Shown piece by piece: positions 18,507-21,738 of a stretch of 64,000 nt of DNA. This DNA comes from Actinophytocola xinjiangensis (GTDB lineage Bacteria; Actinomycetota; Actinomycetes; Mycobacteriales; Pseudonocardiaceae). The notes under the pieces were generated by a model. That model was not told the DNA's origin, made no database searches, and saw only the letters and a program-made list of their open reading frames with translations. How positions within the stretch are numbered: position 1 is the first letter of the stretch; every line of letters begins with the position of its first letter. Made by a program: the position numbers and the translations under genes. The stretch is from assembly GCF_001921215.1 (NCBI RefSeq), contig NZ_MSIF01000012.1, positions 124,001 to 188,000 of the forward strand, in the 5' to 3' direction.

Positions 18507-18989
18507 ATGAGGCGCGCGGTGTGTCCTGGCTCCTACGACCCACCCACCAACGGCCACCTCGACGTGCTCGAGCGCTGTGCGGCCGTGTTCGACGAGGTCG
18601 TGGTCGCGGTGTTGATCAACAAGAACAAGCGTGGTCTGTTCACCGTCGACGAGCGGATGGAGATGCTCGCCGAGTCGGTGTCCCACCTGCCCAACGTGCG
18701 GATCGACTCCTGGCACGGCCTGCTGGTCGACTACTGCCGCCAGCACGGCATCCAGGCCATCGTCAAGGGCCTGCGCGCGATCAGCGACTTCGACTACGAG
18801 CTGCAGATGGCGCAGATGAACCAGCAGCTCACCGGGGTGGAGACGCTGTTCATGCCGACCAAGCCGCTCAACAGCTTCCTGTCCAGCTCACTGGTCAAGG
18901 AGGTCGCCACCTACGGCGGCGACGTCTCCCACCTGCTGCCCGAGACCGTGCACCGCCGCCTGGTCAAGCGCCTGGCCGAGAGGGACTGA
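18507..18989 (+). CDS. coaD: pantetheine-phosphate adenylyltransferase
   Basis: CoaD transfers AMP from ATP to 4'-phosphopantetheine, the penultimate step of coenzyme A synthesis (EC 2.7.7.3). The 160-residue length is typical. The N-terminal nucleotidyltransferase motif is [10 protein letters not shown] (residues 8-17), a Tyr/Pro variant of the more common GTFDPVTNGH, and the second motif [11 protein letters not shown] lies near 128-138. There is no Shine-Dalgarno sequence; a -10 box 6 nt upstream indicates a leaderless message. The 3' end overlaps the convergent acetyltransferase gene by 26 bp. Confidence 0.97.
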
Positions 18990-19431
18990 GCGCCAGCTTC
19001 ATGCCGACGTGGCTGGCGGTGAAGCCCAGGCTCTCGTAGAACCGGTGGGCGTCGGTCCGGCTGGCGTCCGAGGTCAGCTGGACCATGATCGCCCCGGCCT
19101 CCCGCGCCCGGTCCACCGCCCACCGGGTCAGCTCGCCGCCCAACCCGGCGGCCCGCCGGTCCGCGCGCACCCGGACGGCCTCGATCAGCGCGCGGGTGCC
19201 GCCCCGCCGGGACAGCCCCGGGATGAACGTCAGCTGCAGGGTGGCGACCACCTCGCCGTCGACCTCGGCCACCGCCAGGTACTGGCGCTCGTCCCGGTCG
19301 ATCTCGGCGAACGCGCTCGCGTAGGCCGGGTCGCCGGGGGACTCCCTGGTCGCGCCGAGCGGGTCGTCGGCCAGCATCGCGACGATCGCCGGCACGTCCT
19401 CGGACCGCGCGCGGCGGATGGTCGTGTTCAT
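18964..19431 (-). CDS. GNAT family N-acetyltransferase
   Basis: The 155-residue protein has a single GNAT fold: an N-terminal [17 protein letters not shown] start, the central beta strands ([22 protein letters not shown]), an acetyl-CoA binding segment ([20 protein letters not shown], a form of the Q/RxxGxG/A loop) and the C-terminal NxxxxR-like element HRFYESLGF. It would transfer an acetyl group from acetyl-CoA to a small molecule or protein N-terminus; the substrate is unknown. It converges on coaD with a 26-bp overlap of coding sequence and is divergent from the RNase gene. Confidence 0.88.
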
Positions 19432-19506: not shown

Positions 19507-20262
19507 ATGAGCACGACGATGAGCAACGTCACATCCAGGCCCGTGAAGGTGCTACTCACGCTGCTGGTCGCGGCGGTGGCCCTCCTCGGACTCACCTCCG
19601 CCACCTCCGCCGCGCCGGCCGTCCTCGCCCAGCCGGTCTGCGGCGACACGTCCAGCTACGACCTCGTGCCGCTGGGGGACCTGCCGGCCGAGGCCGCCGA
19701 CACCGCCGAGCTGATCGCCGACGGCGGCCCGTTCCCGTACCCGCAGGACGGCACGGTCTTCGAGAACCGCGAGGACCTGCTGCCCGACTGCGCCAGCGGC
19801 TACTACCACGAGTACACGGTCGAGACCCCCGGCAGCCCGGACCGGGGCGCCCGGCGGATCGTCACCGGCGAGGACGGCGAGCACTTCTACACCGACGACC
19901 ACTACGCCAGCTTCGTCCTGATCGACCTGGGCGGCGGCGGGCCCACACCGCCGCCCTCCGGGTGCGGTGACCCGTCGGGCATCGACGAGGCCGGGCTGTC
20001 GACCCTGCCGGCGCAGGTCGCCGACACCGTCGCGCTCGTCCGGGCCGGCGGGCCCTACCCGTTCCCCGGCGACGGCCAGACCTACGACAACCGCGAGGGC
20101 GTGCTGCCCGACTGCGCCGCCGGCTACTACAGCCTGTACACCGTGCCCACCCCGGGCGCCCCCGACCGGGGCGAACGGCGCCTGGTCGCCGGCGAGGACG
20201 GCGAGTTCTTCTACACCCCCGACCGGTACGCGACCTTCGTGCTCGTCGACCTGCTGGGCTGA
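19507..20262 (+). CDS. secreted tandem guanyl-specific RNase (RNase Sa type); second domain inactive
   Basis: The 251-residue protein has a signal peptide (about 1-41) and two homologous RNase Sa-like domains (about 43-141 and 153-251) joined by a Gly/Pro linker. Domain 1 keeps every residue known for RNase Sa: Asn87-Arg88-Glu89 (guanine recognition), Glu102 (general base, in YYHEYTV), Arg113, Arg117 and His132 (general acid, in TDDHYASF). Domain 2 keeps Asn195-Arg196-Glu197, Arg221 and Arg225, but the base is Leu210 (YYSLYTV) and the acid is Arg240 (TPDRYATF), so it cannot use the normal mechanism. Each domain has a Cys pair 50 residues apart (45/95, 153/203). No barstar-like inhibitor gene lies nearby. 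Confidence 0.92.
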   Translation: MSTTMSNVTSRPVKVLLTLLVAAVALLGLTSATSAAPAVLAQPVCGDTSSYDLVPLGDLPAEAADTAELIADGGPFPYPQDGTVFENREDLLPDCASGYYHEYTVETPGSPDRGARRIVTGEDGEHFYTDDHYASFVLIDLGGGGPTPPPSGCGDPSGIDEAGLSTLPAQVADTVALVRAGGPYPFPGDGQTYDNREGVLPDCAAGYYSLYTVPTPGAPDRGERRLVAGEDGEFFYTPDRYATFVLVDLLG

Positions 20263-20355
20263 CACGCCAACTTGGGCCAACCTCCACCGTTCGCCCTGCG
20301 CGAGGCGGCAAACTGGACCCCGGAGTTTCGCGTGGGGCGGCGGAGGAGGCCCGGG

Positions 20356-21096
20356 GTGTACAAGGTGTTCGAGGCGCTCGACGAACTCGTCACGATCCTG
20401 GAGGAGGCCCGGGGCGTGCCGATGACCTCCAGTTGCGTCGTGCCCCGGGGCGACATCCTGGAACTGCTCGACGAGGTCCGGGACGCGCTGCCCGCCGAGG
20501 TCGACGACGCCCAGGACGTGCTCGACCGCAAGGACGAGATCATCGGCAACGCCGAGCACGAGGCCGAGCAGTCGGTGAGCAAGGCCACCATGGAGGCCGA
20601 CAAGCTCCTCGACGACGCCAAGGCCCAGGCCGACCGGATGGTCGCCGAGGCCACCGCGCACGCCGACCGGCTGGTCGCCGACGCCGAGGCGCAGGCCGGC
20701 CGGACCATCGCCGCCGGCCAGTCCAAGTACGACGAGGTCGTCTCCCGCTCCCAGCTCGAGGCCGACCGGATGATCCAGGCCGGCCGCGAGTCCTACGAGC
20801 GGCTGGTCGAGGACGGCCGCATCGAGCAGGAGCGCCTGGTCGCCCAGACCGAGGTCGTGCGGGCCGCCCACGAGGAGTCCTCGCGGGTGCTGGACGCCAC
20901 CGCCGACGAGGCCGCGCGCCAGCGCGCCGAGTGCGACGAGTACGTCGACGGCAAGCTCGCCGAGTTCTCCGACCTGCTCAGCCACACCCTGCGCACGGTC
21001 GGCAAGGGCCGCGCGCACCTGCGCGGCGCGTCGGCCATCGGCTCGACCGCCGGCCTGGGGTCCGGCGGCGCGGCGCCGTTCGACTACACGGCCTGA
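20356..21096 (+). CDS. sepIVA: SepIVA-like DivIVA-domain septation protein
   Basis: A 246-residue acidic coiled-coil protein starting VYKVFEALDELVTILEEARGVPM, as in mycobacterial SepIVA (Rv2927c), which lies in the same position next to the DUF177 and rnc genes. Residues about 28-60 form a DivIVA-like segment (PRGDILELLDEVRDALP), 65-215 are coiled coil with ADKLL / ADRMV / ADRLV repeats, and the tail is Gly/Ala rich. In mycobacteria SepIVA is needed for septation and polar growth. The GTG start was chosen because GGAGGAGG lies 6 nt upstream. Assignment rests on N-terminal motif plus synteny. Confidence 0.87.
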   Translation: MYKVFEALDELVTILEEARGVPMTSSCVVPRGDILELLDEVRDALPAEVDDAQDVLDRKDEIIGNAEHEAEQSVSKATMEADKLLDDAKAQADRMVAEATAHADRLVADAEAQAGRTIAAGQSKYDEVVSRSQLEADRMIQAGRESYERLVEDGRIEQERLVAQTEVVRAAHEESSRVLDATADEAARQRAECDEYVDGKLAEFSDLLSHTLRTVGKGRAHLRGASAIGSTAGLGSGGAAPFDYTA

Positions 21097-21183
21097 GCCG
21101 CGTCCCCGGCCGGCGTAGGCTGGATGGGCCACGCCGCGCTCGCGGGTGGCCGGAACCAACCGTTGGGAAGCGTCGAGTTCGCC

Positions 21184-21738
21184 ATGTCCGAACGCAAGAG
21201 CCCGTGGGTCATCGACACCAGGGAACTCGGGCGTCGCGCGGGTCTGTCCCGCGAGGTGCACCGGATCGCCCCCACCGAGTCCGCGCTCGGTGTCGAGGGC
21301 GTCATCTCCGTGCCCAAGGGCGCCGAGGTCCGCCTGGACGTGCTGCTGGAGTCGGTGGTGGAGGGTGTGCTGGTGTCCGGCACGGCGTTCGCGCCGGTCG
21401 AGGCCGAGTGCTCCCGCTGCCTGGACCCGATCCGGGGCGAGGAGATCGAGGTCGAGTTCACCGAGCTGTTCGCCTACCCGGACAGCGCCACCGAGCAGAC
21501 CACCGACTCCGACGAGATCGCCCGGCTGGTCGACGACCTGGTCGATCTGGAGCCGGTGGTGCGGGACGCGGTCGTGCTGACGTTGCCGAGCGCGCCGCTG
21601 TGCCGGCCCGACTGCGCCGGTCTGTGCCCGGACTGCGGTGTCAAGTGGGCCGATGCCGGTCCCGATCACCGGCATGAGACCATTGACCCTCGATGGGCCG
21701 CGCTCACCGAGCGGTTCAGCACGGATCGGGACGAGTGA
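21184..21738 (+). CDS. DUF177 (YceD-like) protein linked to rpmF
   Basis: A 184-residue protein with the DUF177 signature: an N-terminal VIDTRELGRRAG, a beta-rich centre, CSRCLDPI near 79-86 and a C-terminal CRPDCAGLCPDCG cluster (about 140-152). The Cys pairs suggest a bound zinc. The family is almost always encoded just before rpmF and is linked to 23S rRNA accumulation in plants and E. coli. The ATG at 21184 matches the usual family start; an earlier in-frame ATG at 21124 lies only 2 nt after a TAGGCT box and is probably not transcribed. Confidence 0.9.
   Translation: MSERKSPWVIDTRELGRRAGLSREVHRIAPTESALGVEGVISVPKGAEVRLDVLLESVVEGVLVSGTAFAPVEAECSRCLDPIRGEEIEVEFTELFAYPDSATEQTTDSDEIARLVDDLVDLEPVVRDAVVLTLPSAPLCRPDCAGLCPDCGVKWADAGPDHRHETIDPRWAALTERFSTDRDE

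Follow-up and report, generated by a model that had tools for sequence, protein, structure and literature searches.

A tandem Sa-type ribonuclease of Actinophytocola xinjiangensis whose second domain lacks the catalytic base and may serve as a guanine-binding module

The textbook enzymes RNase Sa and barnase have been studied as single domains. In a 64,000-nt stretch of the Actinophytocola xinjiangensis genome (hereafter the window, to which positions refer) we have analysed a gene that encodes two Sa-type ribonuclease (RNase) domains in tandem, the first of which (D1) carries the full catalytic set while the second (D2) has lost the catalytic base. The base is absent from D2 in all 80 tandem proteins compared, the residues of the guanine pocket are kept, the sampled D2s form one clade and D2 is under purifying selection. 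We propose that D2 may be an old, dead duplicate of D1 that has been kept as a tethered guanine/RNA-docking module, an explanation to which, taken as a whole, we give even chances. The fold, the catalytic scheme and the single-domain relatives were already known, and what would be new is the fusion of a live domain with a dead one. Searches of the open-licence PMC literature brought up no report of a bacterial N1/T1 domain in tandem or in dead form, the one aimed at it pointing to a fungal precedent, and domain databases may well list such an architecture.

Catalytic and recognition residues of the two domains

The Pfam profile PF00545 matched the tandem protein in two stretches (E 9.8e-44), and in a profile search of the own genome each half alone exceeded the curated cut-off of 24, with 87.2 and 65.0 bits. 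The tandem of two Sa-type domains proposed in a preliminary description, which had been made from the letters of the window alone, was thereby confirmed. In RNase Sa, Glu54 is the base, His85 the acid and Glu41 a guanine-recognition residue. An alignment ruled by RNase Sa placed Asn87-Arg88-Glu89, Glu102 (base), Arg113, Arg117 and His132 (acid) in D1, and Asn195-Arg196-Glu197, Leu210 at the base site, Arg221, Arg225 and Arg240 at the acid site in D2. Identity over the 87 aligned residues was 54 between D1 and D2, 57 between D1 and RNase Sa and 45 between D2 and RNase Sa. On realignment every residue number given earlier for the two domains was correct, and the claim that they align without gaps held at the key sites but not throughout, as there is a one-residue gap relative to RNase Sa in the loop that precedes the final strands. 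D1 combines a profile score above the cut-off, the Sa fold and all four of Glu54, Arg65, Arg69 and His85, in agreement with its description as active-looking. D2 likewise matches the profile and the fold, as expected of a PF00545 homologue, but as an active RNase it fails at the base and, in the window protein, also at the acid.

We compared 80 distinct D2s with 80 D1s and with 102 distinct single-domain relatives, the latter taken from loci fetched mostly as best matches and hence non-random (215 domain-bearing open reading frames gave 182 distinct cores). Because the 80 D2s are related, counts out of 80 are not counts of independent events. At the base position (Sa54) D2 has 79 Leu, one Phe and no Glu, and Glu is present in 182 of the 182 D1s and single-domain relatives; the sole Phe belongs to L171 (genome G141). 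At the acid position (Sa85) the D2s have 41 His, 37 Arg, one Asp and one Lys, with at least 14 switches between His and Arg on a quick D2 tree. Since Glu is found in none of the 80 D2s while His is still found in 41, the lost base is, on the sequences compared, the change that defines D2, and the His-to-Arg replacement in the window looks like recurrent drift. The two key substitutions pointed out in the preliminary description therefore differ in standing: the loss of the base is common to all D2s and that of the acid is not general. Relatives with both Glu and His intact in D2, which had been named as the case that would overturn the idea, did not occur. A sequencing error or local mutation behind the loss of the base was ruled out, as the base is lost in all 80 tandem genomes.

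The guanine-recognition loop Asn39-Arg40-Glu41 is kept in D2, with Asn39 and Glu41 in 80/80 and Arg40 in 79/80, and so are Arg69 (80/80), Tyr52 (80/80) and Tyr86 (78/80). The view of D2 as a pseudo-domain with retained guanine-recognition residues thus extends from the window to its relatives. Arg65 persists in just 4 D2s and has been lost in 76, while each of Glu54, Arg65, Arg69 and His85 is present in all 80 D1s. Ten positions are invariant both in the 182 other cores and in all D2s (N39, E41, P45, Y51, Y52, R69, G73, T82, D84 and F89); 18 further positions that are invariant in the 182 are not so in D2, Glu54 among them. Tyr in place of Phe37 and Pro at Sa83, both in 80/80, are additional hallmarks of D2.

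The reading frame of D2 is open in all 80 tandems. In 36 disjoint close pairs, pooled from the genera whose D2 is short, the ratio of non-synonymous to synonymous differences per site (pN/pS, Nei-Gojobori counting) was 0.358 for D1 and 0.397 for D2. The corresponding ratio of corrected distances (dN/dS) was 0.267 for D1 and 0.259 for D2 in the 499 pairs whose pS did not exceed 0.25. D2 is under purifying selection, nearly like that on D1 over short spans and somewhat looser over long ones, and does not resemble a gene in decay.

Both domains adopted the Sa fold, that of D2 being complete, in a structure model computed from 80 aligned rows, which replaced a first one computed from 9 rows (predicted local distance difference test score, pLDDT, 75.3; predicted template modelling score, pTM, 0.45). 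The arrangement of the domains is not confident in the 80-row model (pTM 0.50, pLDDT of the linker ∼46).

Distribution and origin of the tandem

A profile of nine tandem proteins was run over 390 genomes of the host family, one genome per species, and a match over both halves was taken as a tandem. At least 80 of these genomes carry one. The last tandem scored 299.9 bits and the first single-domain protein 251.2, and a tandem diverged below that could escape. The tandem is present in 6/6 genomes of the window's genus, Actinophytocola, its own genome included; the proteins of the other five are identical to named Actinophytocola records. It is also found in 4/7 matching genomes of genus g33, where L050 and L051 are identical to named Prauserella records, and in 70/80 matching genomes of genus g16. 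Matches came from 40 genera and, among those listed, the tandem is confined to 3 of these genera, in keeping with the earlier remark that microbial RNases are normally single domain. Outside the host family no tandem was found at E <= 1e-50 among 298 genomes of the order and 394 of the class, a threshold that a more diverged tandem would escape; the 34 order-sample and 3 class-sample genomes that reached it all lie within the host family (f1). One genome contains two tandem copies of equal score in opposite directions on one contig (G324:C44:94526-95221 and 182226-182921), which stem either from an extensive inverted duplication or from an artefact of the assembly. Sa-type RNases with intact Glu and His occur also outside Actinomycetota, in metagenome-assembled genomes labelled Chloroflexota, Chloroflexi or Anaerolineae (L083, L084, L099, L101 and L115).

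Domain trees were built from 97 rows, to which 28 of the 80 tandem proteins contributed both of their domains and 41 of the 102 single-domain relatives one each. The 28 D2s form one group with a support of 99/93, which became 98/98 after masking of the diagnostic positions and of the deleted loops. Separate duplications in different genera are disfavoured by this masked clade. The combination of an N-terminal Cys-Gly with a Cys at Sa47 is shared by 80/80 D1s, 80/80 D2s and 55/55 single domains that lie beside coaD or yceD, and occurs in 1/47 single domains elsewhere. Because of this common signature D2 is best read, at the level of sequence, as an internal duplicate of the RNase that the host family carries at the coaD locus. 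The fetched flanks of 76 of the 80 tandem genes contain coaD or yceD; the four that lack both (L050, L051, L133 and L134) are all of the g33, Prauserella type. RNase Sa has a Cys7-Cys96 pair, which is replaced here by the N-terminal Cys and the Cys at Sa47.

Searches for remnants and for free-standing forms of D2 were negative. Seven D2s compared by tblastn with ten single-domain loci, seven of them from g16, left no trace of D2 downstream of the single domain, yielding the single domain itself only and otherwise matches with E 0.06 or worse; the 0.06 match lies in L009, which is not g16, and those in the g16 loci are at chance level (E 0.12 or worse). No stand-alone D2-type protein was detected among 306 genomes of the phylum with a D2 profile, whose 15 matches were the D2 of the window and 14 others (the D1 of the window, a paralogue of the window protein and 12 elsewhere). 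These 14 keep Glu and His, as judged by eye on their translations. Recruitment of D2 from a separate stand-alone family was accordingly not seen in these 306 genomes, all 14 having Glu at Sa54.

Possible roles of the second domain

We envisage that a guanyl-specific RNase, D1, apparently secreted, carries a catalytically dead D2 on a short flexible linker. D2 would most likely have a single origin within the host family, where the RNase of the coaD-yceD locus duplicated internally, would have lost its general base early (Glu54 to Leu) and would then have been held by purifying selection together with Asn39-Arg40-Glu41, Arg69 and Tyr86. Its most likely function would be that of a guanine-binding RNA-docking module that holds G-containing RNA uncut and thereby raises the local substrate concentration for D1 or sets its substrate preference. 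The pattern of guanine-reading residues kept, base gone everywhere and acid drifting is the one to be expected of a D2 that binds RNA containing G and leaves it intact, and we infer that D2 is inactive, binds guanine or RNA and thereby helps D1. For the specific version in which a single-origin pseudo-RNase with an early loss of the base, an invariant guanine loop and a drifting acid serves D1 in cis as an RNA dock specific for G, the chances seem to us slightly short of even. Among the three roles suggested for D2 in the preliminary description, guanine/RNA binding would fit best, that of an inhibitor decoy is weakened, and that of a fixed regulator of D1 finds no support in the structure model, given its low pTM and linker pLDDT.

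Several observations weigh against the docking proposal. The presence of the tandem in part or all of three genera and in none of the 37 others with a match is a patchy spread that calls for losses or transfer, and D2 would therefore be dispensable in many lineages. D2 evolves faster than D1 in 2123 wider pairs (dN/dS 0.434 for D1 and 0.526 for D2) and in 15 Actinophytocola pairs (0.307 and 0.431), and all these estimates were obtained by simple counting. In g16 and g33 the 74 short D2s lack both the Arg65 loop and the GPFPY loop of the active-site side of RNase Sa, so the phosphate site is altered, whatever these D2s may bind. His85 still stands in 41/80 D2s, and part of the reason why Asn39 and Glu41 are kept might be the structure of the loop. 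The net charge of the window D2 is -9 (that of D1 is -17), and D2 is acidic across the window's genus, unlike a typical RNA-binding domain; charge as a sign of RNA binding is thus not supportive. RNase Sa is itself acidic. As to the single origin, a tree uniting all twelve Actinophytocola domains was 17.7 log units worse in the masked set but was not significantly rejected (P value of the approximately unbiased test, p-AU, 0.244), which leaves gene conversion or a second, local origin in Actinophytocola formally conceivable.

Four other explanations have to be weighed. D2 could be a covalent dimer partner, the fusion fixing a homodimer-like arrangement that stabilises D1 or modulates its activity. 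What speaks for it is that guanyl-preferring RNases of Bacillus dimerise, and docking models expose their active centres differently to barstar, according to the part of PMC8837141 that deals with them; the fold of D2 is moreover intact as a whole in our predicted model. The arrangement in that model is weak evidence, as it is not confident, and a mere partner needs neither Asn39 and Glu41 in 80/80 nor a consistent loss of Glu54. We regard this role as unlikely. That D2 is an inert passenger of the duplication, constrained by folding only, would accord with its lack in most genera and in 10 of the 80 g16 genomes that matched, with the two loops missing in 74/80 D2s and with its faster change at wider distances. 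A passenger would hardly account for 80 open frames, for a pN/pS near that of D1 in close pairs, for pocket residues that are invariant while the acid drifts, or for the lack of decay intermediates in the seven single-domain g16 loci, and we hold it to be very unlikely. Retention of a weak or altered nuclease activity, with another residue or a bound water as base, could draw on the conservation of Arg69, Tyr86 and, in half of the cases, His85. The pertinent portion of PMC3814384 describes the Glu/His catalytic scheme of RNase T1/Sa and the toxin YoeB, said to use that mechanism, in which activity suffers when the Glu base is lost and a base of the ribosome has been put forward as its stand-in. 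However, Leu at Sa54 in 79/80, the loss of Arg65 in 76/80 and the drift at position 85 are what lost catalysis predicts; residual activity seems to us the most improbable of the four.

The remaining explanation is that D2 acts as an inhibitor sponge, binding a barstar-type inhibitor of the own or of a target cell and leaving D1 free. Residues of RNase Sa listed for the structure 1ay7 among the shared RNase-inhibitor interactions are Arg40, Arg65, Tyr86 and Gln32 (PMC2231411, in the portion covering these contacts); two of them are kept in D2 (Arg40 in 79/80, Tyr86 in 78/80), while Arg65 remains in only 4/80 and Gln32 in at most 1/80 (none among the 79 residues printed). Barstar genes are widespread, in 265/297 family genomes. 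Since all 46/46 genera have barstar, with or without D2, its presence does not follow D2, and co-occurrence gave no signal. The sole barstar gene found in the genome of the window (C3:161492-161749) adjoins a different, single-domain RNase, and none was detected next to the tandem gene; a cytosolic inhibitor would meet a secreted protein only if the latter enters a cell. On balance a sponge appears quite unlikely. The other RNase is a second Sa-type enzyme with intact Glu and His in the G000:C3:161235-161749 region (L002, L034 and L213), and forms an enzyme-inhibitor pair with the adjoining barstar.

Known systems offer partial parallels. RNase Sa, Sa2 and Sa3 of Streptomyces (PF00545, N1/T1 RNases) share the fold of D1 and D2, and the catalytic and guanine-recognition residues of RNase Sa are all present in D1; these enzymes are single-domain, whereas here a base-less second copy is fused. 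RNase Sa is secreted. Barnase, binase and balifase of Bacillus are likewise guanyl-preferring and secreted, and their domains pair as non-covalent dimers (PMC8837141, same part), but with two identical active subunits instead of an active and a dead one that are joined covalently. The RALPH effectors of powdery mildew (CSEP0064/BEC1054) also have a secreted T1-type fold without catalytic residues and are proposed RNA binders, as far as the relevant part of PMC6464244 goes. They are fungal, stand-alone proteins that act in plant cells, while D2 is fused to an active-looking enzyme and keeps Asn39, Glu41 and Arg69; the effectors serve here as functional analogues only. If the docking proposal is true, an old dead copy that selection maintains on a live one would mean that guanine recognition and catalysis have been parted in evolution, one bacterial family would have made the active site of an RNase into a module that reads guanine, and D2 could be the source of a small RNA-binding module specific for guanine. 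The 80 natural D2 variants are a ready set in which to look for residues that serve nothing but binding, and the tandem raises the question of the purpose of secreted actinobacterial RNases.

Gene layout and genomic surroundings

The list of open reading frames of the window gives the tandem gene as 19507..20262 on the forward strand, with an ATG start and 251 residues. Translation probably starts at 19519 instead, because a Met matching M5 is common to nine aligned tandem proteins (the homologues were trimmed there by hand) and the open frame of L038 starts exactly at that Met. The protein following this start is apparently secreted, to judge from its N-terminus (Table 1).

Table 1. Positions of the tandem RNase gene, of its parts and of the neighbouring genes in the window
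Feature	Position	Strand	Remarks
Tandem RNase gene	19519..20262, stop included (earlier call from 19507)	+	M5 at 19519 is the likelier start
Signal-peptide-like N-terminus, residues 5-41	19519..19629	+	hydrophobic stretch judged by eye; predicted helix 14-25
D1, residues 45-140, Sa-type RNase with E102, R113, R117, H132	19639..19926	+	profile, fold, alignment
Glu102 codon GAG, D1 catalytic base (Sa Glu54)	19810..19812	+
Gly/Pro-rich linker, residues 142-152	19930..19962	+	low model confidence
D2, residues 153-249, putative pseudo-RNase	19963..20253	+	profile, fold, alignment
Asn195-Arg196-Glu197, D2 guanine-recognition loop (Sa 39-41)	20089..20097	+	kept
Leu210 codon CTG, D2	20134..20136	+	replaces catalytic base
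Arg240 codon CGG, D2	20224..20226	+	replaces catalytic acid
coaD-like gene, CTP_transf_like	18507-18989		neighbour
GNAT gene	18964-19431	-	neighbour
Coiled-coil-looking protein, DivIVA-like by eye	20272-21096		neighbour
yceD	21124-21738		neighbour

The CTP_transf_like neighbour is, we infer, coaD. The portion of the coiled-coil-looking neighbour from 20358 had no Pfam match, and the window as a whole had no Rfam match and no tRNA. The GNAT frame and the coaD-like gene overlap tail to tail by 26 bases at their 3′ ends (18964-18989).
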